A stretch of 64,000 nt of DNA, taken from the NCBI RefSeq assembly GCF_008831285.2, contig NC_045149.1, positions 374,001 to 438,000 on the forward strand, in the 5' to 3' direction. Below are positions 2,653 through 8,740 of the stretch, one piece after another. Numbering within the stretch: the first letter of the stretch is position 1; every line of letters starts with the position of its first letter. The notes below the pieces were generated by a model. It was not told the origin of the DNA. It saw only the letters and a list, made by a program, of their open reading frames with translations, and did no database searches. This DNA comes from Nymphaea colorata. Lineage: Eukaryota; Streptophyta; Magnoliopsida; Nymphaeales; Nymphaeaceae. Position numbers and translations under genes: made by a program.

Positions 2653-4385
2653 AGTCATCGTCTAACTAACCTCTTTATTTGCGTATTTTAAGAGTTAAAT
2701 GTTAGCTTTAATGCCAACACTTATCATGCACCTATCTTCATGTTTTAAATCTAGTGGCATTCCATTACATATGTCTCTAAGCATGGTTTGATGATTCGAT
2801 TTTATATGCTTTCTTGCATCTATCTAGGAGTAACTGAGGATACTTATTCATGTTCATTTAGACTTGGAATTCAAATACAAACCTTCCCAATTTAAGGTTT
2901 GATTGGTTACATTATGTGCTCATTTTTTATTTTAATCACAGTCTTGGGCAATATTACATTAGAGACAACCGATTTTGTATGTTTGCTCATATTTCAAAGC
3001 TTCCTATACCTATTTGTCTCTGGCATCATGTTGTGAGACTCAGTCATACTGAACAACACCTGGGGCAAGAAAGTCATCTCGTTAGTACCATGAGTAGTAA
3101 TTTGTGGTATATTGACGAGTACCAAGGAGAAATGAGAAACCCAACTTTTAGTTGCCTAATGAAGGAGTTGATCCTCGTACTAGGCCTTTTGGGTAAGTTA
3201 TATTGACATATTTTATATGGAACAATCAAACGATCATAGTTGATCAAACCAAACTCAATCTGGGTCCTATGTTCCTTTTCCAAATATATGTACGTGATGT
3301 TTATCATTGTATGATGAATGCATGTATGTCTTCCATCTTTCTCATTTAAATCAATATTTTTTTTATCATCTCTATCTAATCTTCAACATGACCACATCAT
3401 AAACTCATGCTTTAACCCTACCACCTAATTAACATTGTTTTTTCAAGTTCTATCATTTGACAAGTCCATTTTTTTAAAATTGTTTCAAAATCTACCTCTT
3501 ATCATACCTTGTCAACCCCTTATTTATTCATTTGTCCAACCTCCTATTCTTGAACATGATAGCAATCTATTTGTTCAATTACCAACTTTATTTAACTCTA
3601 GTCATGCATTCTTTTTATCCTCCTTTATATTTAGCCAAATAATTTCCTAGCTTCAATATCCATAGTGTGTTTTTCTTCTCATTTTACTACTTTCATGATT
3701 TTATTGGGTCATTATTTATTCCAAGTTGATTACTAATCTTTGCTTTACTCTAGTATATTCTATTTTCAATCGTTGGATACTTGATTGACTTATTCATTCA
3801 CCCCTATTGAGTCTATATCTTTCTAAATCAAACCTCATGTATTTATATTTTTGCCTGAGCTTTAATCCTCTAAAGTCAAGATTCTTCACCACTAGTAAAT
3901 TGTTTATACTTTTCTCTATTTTCTTATATTATCTTTATAATGCTATCAACTTGATATCTCAATGTGAAAATCACTATCTACTAATCATATTCTTATAATA
4001 AGTTTTTTTCCTACAAGCTTTGTTTCAATTGCTTATCAAATCGAAATTTTTTTTATACCTAAGCTCACGCACATGATATTATCTTTCACCCTCAATTTTC
4101 TACTAGCAATAAATATATCAATTTCTTTTATACAATTTTGTTCACACCGTTCTTTTTGTTGAGGCATTTTCTATTATTTTCTTTTCCTAAGTCTCAATCA
4201 AGGACACCAACCATCTATTTTTTACCCAGTACATTGGTGCATTCTGTTTTGAATAATCTTATCTCTCACTAGTCATGGCAATTGCTAACATTGGGGCATT
4301 TTTCTTAATTATGAAGATTTTGAAGAATCTTCTAAATTGCCTTTGCGACATATAATTTTATTTCACAAGAATTATTAAAATCATC
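2653..4385 (+). other. 5' interior of the gypsy element, no recognisable gene
   Basis: AT-rich sequence between primer site and hAT insertion. The longest frame (2916-3206, 96 codons) shows no gag, protease or RT motif. I read this stretch as decayed leader or interior sequence of the LTR element. Confidence 0.5.
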
Positions 4386-4393
4386 CTTGTCCA
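4386..4393. repeat. hAT target-site duplication, left copy
   Basis: CTTGTCCA, identical to 8733-8740. The perfect 8-bp match shows a single insertion event and suggests it is fairly recent relative to the host element. Confidence 0.93.
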
Positions 4394-4600
4394 TAGGGGT
4401 GCACAACGAGTCGAGTTACTCTAACTCGACTCGTTTAAGCTCGACTCGTAAGTTAAACGAGCTGCTTCATTAATTAAATGAGTCGAGCTCGAGTTGACGA
4501 GTCAACTCAATTAATTAATCGAGCCGAGTTCGAGTTCACTTGAGTGAACTCGTTAAAGCTCGACTCAGCTCGATTAGTTAATGAACCGGTTTTAAAAAAA
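4394..4600. repeat. Left terminal and subterminal repeats of the hAT element
   Basis: Dense array of ACTCGACTCG, GAGTCGAGCTCGAG and TAATTAATCGAG words in both orientations. In hAT elements, clustered subterminal motifs are transposase-binding sites; here that role is inferred. Confidence 0.75.
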
Positions 4601-4975
4601 CCGGTTGGGACTCATTTCTTCTAACTTCAAAGGCGGGAAAGAAGTTTTAGGGTTTCCTTTCGTCCCTCTTTTCGACTCCGACTCTCCCTCTCTCTGACTT
4701 CTCCTTCTAGGGTTTCTTTTCATTCTCCCTCTCACTTCTCCTTCTCTTCTCCGCCTGTGCTCGCTCCTGCCGCCCTGTGTGTGCTCTCTGTGTTTGATGG
4801 GCCCTGGTTACAGCCACACCAAGCCAAGCACTTGCCCTGTTGTCGGCATCACACCGCTATCCTCTGCTCCTCGCTCATTTCTTCCGGCGATCATCCAACC
4901 AGGGACTCGACAAAAGGTACTGTCGTCTTGCTCTTACCGGTTGTCGCTAGAATGGAACATGGCAGGGCACACCGC

Positions 4976-5126
4976 TCGCATTTTGCCCTCTATTTTTTTA
5001 GGGCACCAAAGAGGAACACATCGTTCTATTGCCCTCTGCTTTTTAGGGCAGCGAAGAGAAGGCACCAAAGAGGAGCACATCGCTCTCCGTTGCCCTCTGT
5101 TTTTTAGGGCACCGAAGAGGAGCACT
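4976..5126. repeat. Tandem hairpin repeats inside the hAT element
   Basis: Three units of about 45-60 bp, starting near 4976, 5021 and 5080. Each contains a T-rich segment between TGCCCT and AGGGCA, which can pair as a short hairpin, followed by an ACCAAAGAGGAGCAC-like tail. Short frames run through the region but look like by-products of the repeat. It lies in the leader-like part upstream of the captured exons. Confidence 0.65.
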
Positions 5127-5977
5127 TCGCCTGCCCTCTTGTTTTTTTTTCTGCTGCATTCACCTTCCGTGCAAGAATCATCTCTTGCTGGAGCGCTTGT
5201 TGTCTGTTGGATCGCATTCCAAATGATATATTTAATATGATTGCATATGCTAAGCCAGTAAAAGTCGCTTTGCTAGTGAAGTTGCTTCTGTTTGAGTGAT
5301 GTTTTGCAGCTTGGTGTTAACAGGTTTTGCTCTCTTTAGATGGCAAACTTTGCTGTTACGTATATTGGATATTCTAAGTCCTGCATTTATTCTATTGGAT
5401 TGATATTGATAATGTTATTGTTTTGTAGTTTGATATTGCATGAGGTTGCAAAAATAAGCTTCTTGCTTTGTTTATTTATACTTGAGCCAGCTAAAGAGTT
5501 CGTATCCACCTAGAAGAAACCTCTCAGTGCTGTGATGATGCAAAAAGGAAAAGTTCTGTTCTGCAGATCGGCTTCTAAACATTTTTGTGTGTATGAATGC
5601 AAATTTACATAAAGATGTTTATTCATGATGAAGCAAAAAGCTGTGATGTAGAAGTAACAGAACTAAACTTGAAGTTCTATTCCTAAATAATGAGGATTGT
5701 ATTCAAGTAAATAATTAACAGGCTGATATTGACTATTTGGTTTCTTACCTTGATTTGGATTTTGGAGTTCCCCAAATAATTATATAGTAAACAAGCAATT
5801 TGAGTGAGATGATGGCTGCTATTTTTGAGAAACAACAGTGGTGAAGGTTTTGAAATTCAGAGATGGCTCGTACAGGTTAGCATCTTGTGTACTCCTTGAT
5901 CTTAAGTGCCCTGCCCACGTTAAGTGATTATTCCTGGTTAACTTTGTGGCTTATGAACTGTCTTTTACATTTTTCAG

Positions 5978-6736
5978 TTTGAAGACTTTGCCAATCACAA
6001 TGCATTTGAGTTGCTTGCAAAGTATGGGACTACACATCTCGTCTTCAATGATGATATACAGGTAAAGTTATACAACTGTAGTATGTGTATTTCTTCTGCT
6101 TTTTTCTTTTCAATTTTTTGTAATGTATATGTGTTCTACTAAACTTCATTGCCATCTTCTTCTTCTTTTCTGATTATCTGTTGTGTAATTTCTGCAGGGA
6201 ACTGCTTCTGTTGTTCTTGCTGGGCTTATTGCAGCACTAAAATTAGTTGGCGGATCCCTAGCTGAGCACACTTTTCTCTTCCTTGGTGCTGGTGAGGTAA
6301 GTTGGAAATTAAATTTATATCCGATGCTATTTTCATTCATATATAGTTCATATCAAATGGTGATCAGAAAGTATCTATGTCTCTTTTGCTCTTTGTTGCC
6401 TTCCATGTCAAGAACCTGATACTATTAAGTCTTTTTTTATCAATAGTTGCATCTGTAACTTCACGAACTATAATGGAAAAATACTTTGCTGACATGTGTC
6501 ATTTTATCTTATCAACTTTGTTTTTATCACTTGCAGGCTGGGACTGGCATTGAAGAGCTGATTGCTCTTGAGATGTCAAGACAGGTATCCTTTATCCACA
6601 TGTTTAGCGGCCCAACTGATCCTCTGATAATTAGCGAGTTCTGAATTTGAAGTCTAAAATCACATGTCTGATTCTCTTTCAGACCAAAGCTCCATTGGAA
6701 GAATGCAGAAAGAGAATATGGCTTGTGGACTCAAAG
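5978..6736 (+). pseudogene. Captured NADP-dependent malic enzyme fragment (four exons)
   Basis: NADP-malic enzyme converts malate to pyruvate, CO2 and NADPH. Four exons with introns are readable: 5978-6061 ([20 protein letters not shown], then LVFNDDIQ), 6198-6296 ([12 protein letters not shown] to FLFLGAGE, the nucleotide-binding turn), 6537-6584 (AGTGIEELIALEM) and 6683-6736 (TKAPLEECRKRIWLVDSK). Introns keep GT and AG at most borders, so this is a genomic, not cDNA-derived, copy. After the last exon the donor position reads AT instead of GT. A preceding exon may end at 5875 (...LVQ before GTTAGC), but it is diverged. The N-terminus and the C-terminal half are absent. It lies wholly inside the hAT transposon and cannot encode an enzyme. 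Confidence 0.9.
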
Positions 6737-7342
6737 ATAACGTGGGATTAACTCTTGCTTCGCCTTCTGCCTTGGGTTTGAACTACCATCTAATTTTGAC
6801 AGTTTCATTTGTTATTTTGATTGATACGGTCTATTCAAATGTTTGCCTTCCATACTTCAGGGACTTATATCATAATATCATAATATTACCAAAATGTTCT
6901 TTTGAAATTTGATTATTCTCATTTTCAAATTTTCACTTTTTCTTTTTCAAGTTTAGAAGACCCTCTTGGCCTTCCTACGAACTCATGAAACAAAAGCACT
7001 CATTTATAGATCCCTCTAAGTAGGAGCTTCATCAAAAGTTTTATCAAGTTTAACTCACATCACTTAAGGTTGGGGATTTAAAGGCAGGGTAGTGACAATA
7101 TCTTACATTTTTATGTAATCTGGCCATTTTATGTAAAAAGGGGGGGAACATGAGCAGGTAATCCTCCAAGTGTGTTATTATCAGTCTGTTTGCTACTTCT
7201 TAAAATATTACTTTGTGTTATTTCTAGGACAACATTAGGTCCTGTAGTTTCTTATTGGAAACAAGTAGTAATCTTACATGCCATTGTTAATGTGGGTGCA
7301 AAATTCCATGTCCTCTGCTGCTAATATTTGTCATTTGATGCA

Positions 7343-8245
7343 GGTTTTATGATCTTAATGTACATTTTTGAGACGTATTTGGACATGAGATAGCATTCTG
7401 CTCTGAGGCTCCCCACCCTTCCTAAACCATTGCTAGGGGTGTTCAGTCAGGAAAATTTTGAGAAATCACGTGCTTACAGCCTTGATAAGAGATATCATTG
7501 TTCTTCTTGTCTGAAACTTTGAAATATATCTGGTTGGGTTCCTTGTTTGGAAATTCTGCTGCAAATATGACTAGTATGTCCTTACTTTCATGTTCCGGTG
7601 ATTGGCAATGTTATGTGGTGAGCTCATTTAGTCTTGTATGTTGGGTTTCAGTCGCTTCCACTTTGTTCACGAGGCCTTTACAATTGCGATAGACTTCGTG
7701 AATCTTGTACTTTGGTGCATTGCCTTGGTGTTGGAAGGTACATGTTTTTGTGCATTGAAATGCAGTTGCTTTGCTCATTTACTTTGGGTTAGCTTCTGCA
7801 ACCTTTGGTCTTTGGTTGCAGAAATCAGCAGATCTTTTAATATCCATGGGCTGGAACCCTGAGAATGAGATCCTTCATACACTGGCATTCTTGGCAGGTG
7901 TCATGCTTTGGTCACATGTACGTTTTGAAATGTGAGCTACTACAGTTTGTCTGGGACTTTTTCTCTTTCCTATTGAACTTTTGGTCTTATTAACTCATGG
8001 TTAAGTTGACCTGCATTGCTTTCAGGTAAGTTCTCTCATCATTCTGTCTTAGGTTAAATTGGAAAAAAAATACTTCTTGAATATCAGTCTTTGTCAGCAT
8101 AAATGTTGTTAATTGTTATTTGTCTATTATTATATGATCCTAAGTGATTTTCTAATCAATACTGATTATTGTGTTGCAGATCATTGATTTGCCGTTCTCA
8201 CTGTACTCGACCTTTGTAATTGAGGCTCGCCATGGCTTTAACAAA
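7343..8245 (+). pseudogene. STE24: Captured CAAX prenyl protease 1 (STE24) N-terminal fragment
   Basis: STE24 is a multi-pass ER zinc metalloprotease that processes prenylated proteins. Four exons are readable: 7343-7491 (FMILMYIFETYLDMR, stop, HSALRLPTLPKPLLGVF, SQENFEKSRAYSLDK), 7652-7737 (RFHFVHEAFTIAIDF, with a small frame-shifting deletion before PWCWK), 7822-7917 (GWNPENEILHTLAFLAGVML) and 8180-8245 (IIDLPFSLYSTFVIEARHGF). The introns are retained. The first donor reads AT instead of GT, and an in-frame TAG interrupts exon 1. The catalytic HExxH half is absent. It lies directly downstream of the malic enzyme fragment, in the same orientation, inside the hAT element. The start codon region is missing or altered. 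Confidence 0.9.
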
Positions 8246-8429
8246 GTTTGAACTGCTTGGACTGTGAACTCGTTGTCAAATTTGAATTAAATATAGTTGG
8301 TTTATCCTCATGAATGGCATCTGAACCTCTTATTATTATTTTTTTAAGTTGAAGTTTTTTCAGGAAATCATAGGCAAAAAATAATTATGTGGATAAACAT
8401 TAATGAGACATTTGATTTCCTCGGTAACT

Positions 8430-8732
8430 AGTTAATCGAGCCTTAAACGAGCTCGATAAGGATGAGTAATATTAATCGAGCCCACATATTCGAGCCTTAG
8501 TCGAGCTCACTTATTCGAGCCGTAGTCGAGCTCACGGTCGAGCTCAACAAGTTAGGATGTAAGTAAACGAGCTTAATCGAGCCGAGCTCGAGCTCGACTA
8601 TTGACTATCGAGTCGAGTTCGAGCCAGGATAGTCGAGCTATAATCGAGTTCGAGTCGAGCTCGTGTCTTATTTAGTCGAGCCGAGTTCGAGCTGACCGAG
8701 CTCGGGCTTGACTTGGCTCGTGTTCAGCCCTA
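8430..8732. repeat. Right terminal and subterminal repeats of the hAT element
   Basis: More than ten copies of TCGAGC or GAGCTCGA words in about 300 bp, ending in the inverted repeat. They correspond to the left array but are longer and differently arranged. Confidence 0.75.
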
Positions 8733-8740
8733 CTTGTCCA
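8733..8740. repeat. hAT target-site duplication, right copy
   Basis: CTTGTCCA, identical to 4386-4393, directly after the right terminal CCCTA of the transposon. Confidence 0.93.

Follow-up and report, generated by a model that had tools for sequence, protein, structure and literature searches.

How does a transposon that moves by cut and paste come to hold, between its own two ends, pieces of several plant genes that lie on different chromosomes? Gene capture of this kind makes new exon combinations, and its mechanism is debated. The question is raised here by one element of Nymphaea colorata, which lies at 4394-8732 (C12:378394-382732) of a window of 64,000 nucleotides (C12:374001-438000), the whole stretch that we analyzed. 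An original prediction, made from the letters of the window, had seen there a hAT transposon that captured parts of two genes, NADP-malic enzyme and STE24, at the level of DNA and possibly in two steps. We argue that the element is a non-autonomous Pack-hAT and that, quite probably, serial template switching in gap repair, with exchange between elements, put its inside together. What makes the locus useful is that one genome (408 Mb in 783 contigs were searched) offers the donors, relatives that bear transposase, and several related chimeras whose junctions can be read.

Is this, to begin with, a real and complete element? Its surroundings read CTTGTCCA / TAGGGGTGCACAACGAG ... CTCGTGTTCAGCCCTA / CTTGTCCA, which places the borders at exactly 4394 and 8732, between two copies of a target-site duplication (TSD) that is perfect over 8 bp, as had been predicted. 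The terminal inverted repeats (TIRs), TAGGGGTGCACAACGAG and TAGGGCTGAACACGAG, are short and inverted, as is usual for hAT elements, and imperfect; they are there, but “matching,” as they had been called, is true only in part, since TAGGG is exact and, by a hand count, about 14 of 16 bases are the same when one gap is allowed. Dense CGAGTC/CGAGCC-type subterminal repeats stand inside both. The two flanks joined with one TSD copy (393 bases) find their best genomic match over bases 1-380 at 85%. The join, at about 227-235, is crossed by 43 of the 81 listed matches, which start at base 200 or before and reach base 270 or beyond. Because the joined flanks match related genomic places, we conclude that the element inserted cleanly into a repeat that was older. 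Nor is the element a product of chance, because a second copy (4280 of 4332 aligned bases agree) has a perfect TSD of its own and the joined flanks match related empty sites.

First looks with the 5′ end and the 3′ end gave 547 and 670 candidates, of which 40 each were scored. The second copy, L029 on C9, is the one other full inside among the candidates scored in a comparison of the inside, and it is also the only other place where malic enzyme and STE24 pieces occur together, so that the two were not seen side by side without hAT ends. At a Jukes–Cantor distance of 0.012 from the window element, it has all the junctions, with no change in the order of the pieces, and is flanked by a TSD of its own, CCAACATT; the chimera therefore transposed as a unit. 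The two ends do not belong to different elements, for they occur together on other copies as well. A perfect 8-bp TSD was found in seven of nine elements compared: the window copy, L029, a related chimera (L030, called E2 below), a 738-bp element (L044), and the larger elements A9, A8 and A11, which have the same ends and the TSDs AGCATAGA, ATTTCAGC and TCCATAGG, respectively. Another chimera, E3 (L036), agrees at 7 of 8 bases.

The compared parts of A9, A8 and A11 encode hAT transposase (PF14372 in L045, PF14372 and PF05699 in L046; L047 was assigned by similarity, not by Pfam), with scores among the relatives of 2.7e-27 for the hAT RNase-H domain and 2.2e-28 for Dimer_Tnp_hAT. In a search for transposase, the 81 candidates scored (of 758) yielded 90 matches, with a stop-free frame of 699 amino acids at three loci, and among those scored there was no match inside C12:378394-382732. 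Outside the 5′ region, the window element does not align to what was compared of A8, A9 and A11. Without a transposase, it is non-autonomous in the sense of a Pack-hAT (Pack-TYPE) element, and 4394-8732 is thus a complete non-autonomous hAT element, the original assignment being borne out by ends, TSD and transposase-bearing relatives together. Pack-MULEs have TSDs of about 9 bp and MULE-type ends; here, the TSDs are 8 bp, and the relatives carry hAT transposase. Helitrons, which are rolling-circle elements, have neither TSD nor TIR and end 3′ in CTRR; here, both TSD and TIR are present.

What, then, does it carry? Compared with 20 fetched loci, the element resolves into nine pieces and a short scrap from at least six sources (five or more plant genes and a retrotransposon-like piece), all six in sense relative to the element (Table 1). 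The prediction of two genes was dropped on this comparison: malic enzyme and STE24 stand, but cargo or foreign DNA also makes up most of 4793-5857, 6874-7133 and 8244-8294, and two steps of capture now look too modest.

Table 1. Features of the element and its borders (positions in the window; fractions are identical over compared bases)
Feature	Positions	Strand	Remarks
Left TSD CTTGTCCA	4386..4393	.	flank reading; empty-site search
hAT 5′ terminus, TIR TAGGGGTGCACAACGAG and subterminal CGAGTC/CGAGCT repeats	4394..4787	+	common to transposase-bearing relatives
Piece common to family element E3 (352/367 gap-free), like Copia leader at L040 (288/321 gap-free)	4793..5219	+	sense
TSR2 gene piece, probably intron	5216..5412	+	sense; donor L034 4953-4757 (189/197); 4-nt overlap with Copia-like piece
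MIC10-like (DUF543) gene intron piece	5394..5857	+	sense; donor L035 (381/432 gap-free); left border ambiguous
Short filler between MIC10-like and malic enzyme pieces, source not assigned	5858..5866	+	
Malic enzyme piece: four full exons, introns, two flanking-exon slivers	5867..6868	+	donor L031 5647-4647 (953/1000)
5-nt junction filler giving short tandem repeat (ATCATAAT twice)	6869..6873	+	
OST48 piece a, probably intron	6874..7020	+	sense; donor L033 4942-5088 (142/147)
OST48 piece b, probably intron	7019..7133	+	sense; donor L033 5895-6012 (111/115)
STE24 piece a: three exons with introns	7127..7950	+	donor L032 7951-7127 (771/820)
TAG stop in STE24 exon	7391..7393	+	window copy only
TGA stop (donor codon TCA)	7699..7701	+	both chimera copies
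STE24 piece b: one exon	7944..8250	+	donor L032 4140-3833 (290/306)
51-nt scrap identical to part of L037 (C1)	8244..8294	+	7-nt overlap with STE24 piece b
hAT 3′ terminus, subterminal CGAGCC/CGAGCT repeats, TIR ...CTCGTGTTCAGCCCTA	8296..8732	+	sequence comparison
Right TSD CTTGTCCA	8733..8740	.	flank reading

The internal DNA was copied from host genes that are still present elsewhere, and the five gene donors have Pfam support: malic and Malic_M at L031, Peptidase_M48_N at L032, OST48_N at L033, WGG/TSR2 at L034, and DUF543, which we take to be MIC10, at L035 (the Copia-like locus L040 has RVT_2). The malic enzyme and STE24 donors are on different chromosomes, C1 and C9. The four exons of each that had been predicted, with introns and in one orientation, are all on the + strand, at about 5978-6062, 6198-6297, 6537-6586 and 6684-6731 for malic enzyme (full exons) and about 7344-7490, 7651-7738, 7821-7920 and 8180-8247 for STE24, with borders set by eye from frames and splice signals. 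Within the window itself, one of four malic enzyme exon frames matches Pfam (Malic_M, 1e-7), three of the four STE24 exon frames were submitted and gave no match, and the list of PDB matches to the window exon 6189-6416 is headed by malic enzymes. The identity of STE24 rests on its donor (Peptidase_M48_N at 7.2e-11, plus 6.5e-4 under the curated cut-off); one STE24 donor exon, searched against the PDB, had no match up to E 1. The OST48 and TSR2 pieces are likely intron, lying inside the genes and outside the exons that Pfam recognizes, and the MIC10-like piece is intron, because it lies between two exons bearing the two halves of DUF543.

Could the cargo have come from reverse-transcribed messages? 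We give this almost no credence, having found no point in its support: the donors match the malic enzyme and STE24 cargo across exons and introns alike, the introns being ∼92–95% identical, and the MIC10-like piece is intron only. As regards spliced RNA, the idea is refuted; unspliced RNA would be a very improbable source. Introns kept in the cargo mean that DNA was copied, and the prediction of capture at the DNA level holds.

How were the pieces joined? Some 800 bp of donor are skipped between the two OST48 pieces and ∼3 kb of donor intron are absent between the two STE24 pieces, and many of the ten junctions show small overlaps or short fillers. Eight junctions were simulated with random breakpoints (hAT|Copia-like and TSR2|MIC10-like were omitted as ambiguous). 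Four of the eight have overlaps, of 4, 2, 2 and 7 nt, or 15 in all, where random breakpoints give 6.07 on average (P about 0.008); for the longest overlap by itself, of 7 nt, P is 0.0016. Skips, small overlaps, fillers and the inverted self-copy described below fit template switching in gap repair or replication.

A different route has been published for Pack-TYPE elements, for example, Pack-CACTA in Arabidopsis (in the available parts of PMC13317346 and PMC8903248): two family elements insert near each other, and an aberrant excision creates a hybrid that spans the host DNA between them. We compared the element ends with the 9.9-kb loci L031-L035 (the five gene donors) and L040, and found neither a match of at least 40 nt at E 1e-4 nor an exact TIR core word. 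This argues against a pair of insertions flanking the donor, although old insertions since excised would not show. With sources on several chromosomes and donor DNA skipped, many rounds of such insertion would be needed, nor would the model lead one to expect the inverted self-copy. We think local double insertion unlikely here.

That self-copy was found in E2, one of two related elements with other cargo, of the sort that the original prediction had thought worth looking for. E2 (L030 2462-6680, C2) is 4219 bp long with a perfect TSD, GCTATCGC, and holds OST48 sequence (donor 4085-4247 and 4455-6122), followed by TSR2 (5006-4520). E3 (C3) is 4575 bp long and carries a Copia-like piece, OST48 4085-4171, ∼2.5 kb related to C9, and two TSR2 pieces, and we found no malic enzyme or STE24 matches in it. 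(The ∼2.5 kb, L036 1941-4434, is related at 90% to C9:14160615-14163150.) The order of cargo differs: TSR2 precedes OST48 in the window element, whereas OST48 precedes TSR2 in E2 and E3. These two share CCGTTA before the OST48 piece, where the donor does not have it. In addition, the OST48 junction of E2, at 513-545, recurs in inverted orientation at E2 2350-2382 (33 nt), and the longest exact match of the inverted stretch at the donor locus is 30 nt vs. the 33 nt copied. Since the copy exceeds what the donor can match, it was taken from an element that already held the junction, and we regard it as a probable mark of template switching. The junction common to E2 and E3 and the inverted copy are relevant to deciding whether template switching or local double insertion was at work. 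That the window element, E2 and E3 each left hAT sequence independently at one preferred spot is not claimed, because the window element and E3 share the Copia-like piece and E2 and E3 share a junction.

One might still ask whether every piece was joined in a single burst of template switching. The donor differences common to both chimera copies go some way toward this idea, for four of the five gene sources have diverged to the same order: OST48 (7/262), TSR2 (7/197), malic enzyme (introns, 41/714) and STE24 (introns, 37/483 and 11/238). The MIC10-like piece is more diverged (51/432), and heterogeneity is significant with it (P 7e-6) and weaker when it is left out (P 0.035). Furthermore, the Copia-like piece is common to E3, which has no malic enzyme or STE24 matches, so some joining was probably earlier. 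A single burst is, in our estimate, improbable.

Is the chimera perhaps a new gene under selection? All six sources are in sense, the malic enzyme exons have neither stop nor indel, and before the copies split, fewer changes fell in exons than in introns. Against this, the nonsense codon at 7699 is in both copies, and the window copy alone has another stop, along with an insertion of 1 nt at 7695. Changes since the split (exons 8/688, introns 10/1435, P 0.31) are alike, with no sign of exon constraint. Where malic enzyme could be polarized, with two repeat-borne fragments (L038 and L039), the element-side rates are likewise similar, at 3/154 in exons and 10/417 in introns (on the donor side they are 1/154 and 6/417; 4 intron sites could not be assigned). 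To judge from the reading frames, no intact product would be expected, and we consider selection for a new function very improbable. The two fragments used for polarizing lie in a 2.1-kb repeat (L038 5142-7195 and L039 3756-5867, 90.7% alike), where the malic enzyme fragment has borders unlike those in the window.

Several points weigh against the reading that we prefer, namely, serial template switching with exchange between elements. Four of the eight simulated junctions scored zero overlap, two of these with short fillers, and the overlap lengths come from inspecting ungapped displays by eye, with 2 of 10 junctions omitted. The TSD test is not clean everywhere, the flanks of L041 (TCCCCGGG / TCTCTGGG) agreeing at only 6 of 8 bases. 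Exons hold fewer of the donor differences common to both copies (12/688) than introns do (89/1435; Fisher P 2e-6), and fewer than plain neutral decay within the element would lead one to expect, and part of the divergence may therefore predate capture; one reading is that the captured alleles may already have diverged from the reference donors. Finally, the substitutions do not show whether OST48 and TSR2 pieces derive from E2-like elements or from the genes directly. For the window element, a hand count that bears on descent of these pieces from an E2-like element gives ∼6 donor-side, 10 window-element-side and 6 E2-side changes, with a shared 3-nt gap, and favors neither source.

With these points on the scale, we would still picture the inside of the element as assembled over several episodes in which DNA repair or replication was interrupted and the template may have switched, whether to the element itself, to a sister element or to an unlinked host gene, leaving short matches or small fillers at many switch points. 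The chimera kept both hAT ends and so moved as a unit, most likely by the transposase of family relatives. If the exchange is true, capture is not a one-off event for each element, and cargo and junctions pass among family members.

How far does such traffic extend within the family? The TSR2 piece occurs at ten more places (one on C12, three on C16, four on C8, and one each on C7 and C10), with a length of 142 nt at seven and 104 to 111 nt at three. One of these, C16:1201313 (L052, C16:1201240-1201700, 74-254), is the place that was read: the piece is joined to a 39-nt hAT 3′-subterminal stretch and stands ∼180 bp upstream of a transposase start, in the same sense, with stops further on in the frame. 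As its sequence reads, the C16 case is captured host DNA within a transposase-bearing member, the transposase being interrupted. At C12:10362560 and C16:1179224, a transposase with stops lies near the piece, by coordinates alone; the compared parts of A9, A8 and A11 are without it. A family element on C8 (L023, 3′ end C8:18781888) has a piece of STE24 exon of ∼160 nt at 1501-1664, with other borders and 92.5% identical to the donor; perhaps the STE24 gene was captured twice, in the window element and in L023, whose ends were read in part. The 51-nt scrap of the window element has its L037 match near another family 3′ end on C1. More tentatively, and with rather more doubt than belief, one can imagine the whole family as a combinatorial gene-shuffling system, in which members (transposase-bearing ones included) might draw on a common pool of host genes, swap junctions by template switching, keep captures in sense, and grow and recombine as chimeras.

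Some observations on the donors stand apart from this argument. The STE24 donor intron that is skipped (L032 4141-7126) contains a dispersed repeat with many copies genome-wide, which lies mostly at 1587-2437 of 2986 and also covers parts of 31-790. At one end, ∼540 bp had no other copy among 40 of 415 candidates scored, so that an insertion into the donor and a deletion in the element are both candidate causes of the 3-kb skip. Further short malic enzyme fragments are found at L043 4614-4808 (C1:1173613), where part is inverted, and at C1:1348018-1348126, and a fragmentary OST48 copy with two skips is at C2:7103694-7104652. L040 3670-9314 is a Copia element with a reverse transcriptase frame at 7254-8003 and a leader resembling the hAT cargo; the leader-like piece may have passed in either direction, from Copia to hAT or from hAT to Copia.

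As a kind, hAT gene capture is already known, and it is better documented than the “much less often” of the original prediction implied (PMC2528002, PMC3260210, PMC8903248). In the parts of these sources that were available, it is reported from grapevine (PMC2528002), from maize (PMC3260210), from maize and rice as Pack-hAT/Pack-TYPE (PMC8903248) and from frog (PMC8277862). The literature on hAT, Pack-TYPE, Pack-TIR and Helitron capture, covered in part and with few subscription journals, gave us no six-source hAT chimera with junctions common to several elements. One of the closest systems is Hatvine-6 of grapevine, which also has constant ends, a transposase, and variable insides often resembling genic (introns and exons) and nongenic host DNA; its TSD is 9 bp rather than 8 bp, and six-source chimeras, common cargo junctions and inverted self-copies are, in the part available, not described (PMC2528002). 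The Pack-hATs of maize and rice share with the window element hAT TIRs, an 8-nt TSD and captured gene DNA, whereas multidonor chimeras and cargo passed between elements are not treated in the available text (PMC8903248). Maize Ds2 and Ds-l4 likewise hold exons and introns copied from unlinked genes, which has been attributed, as a suggestion, to repair errors after excision; they belong to the Ac/Ds family, however, and the captures detailed in the available part are of single genes, with Ds-l4-483 called compound (PMC3260210). Metazoan Pack-TIRs, frog Pack-hAT among them, are like our case in breakpoint microhomology and in multicopy forms that transpose, and template switching via gap filling or FoSTeST is named as their mechanism, but these are animals, and reshuffled multisource cargo is not described in the text available (PMC8277862). 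Maize Helitrons, as far as the available text goes, resemble the window element in several gene fragments per element, stepwise gain and internal losses (PMC3288121). Set beside all of these, what stands out here is the number of sources, the cargo found in other orders in related elements, and the cargo inside a transposase-bearing member, and these overlapping scraps, differently ordered among relatives, show how such elements can reshuffle host DNA.

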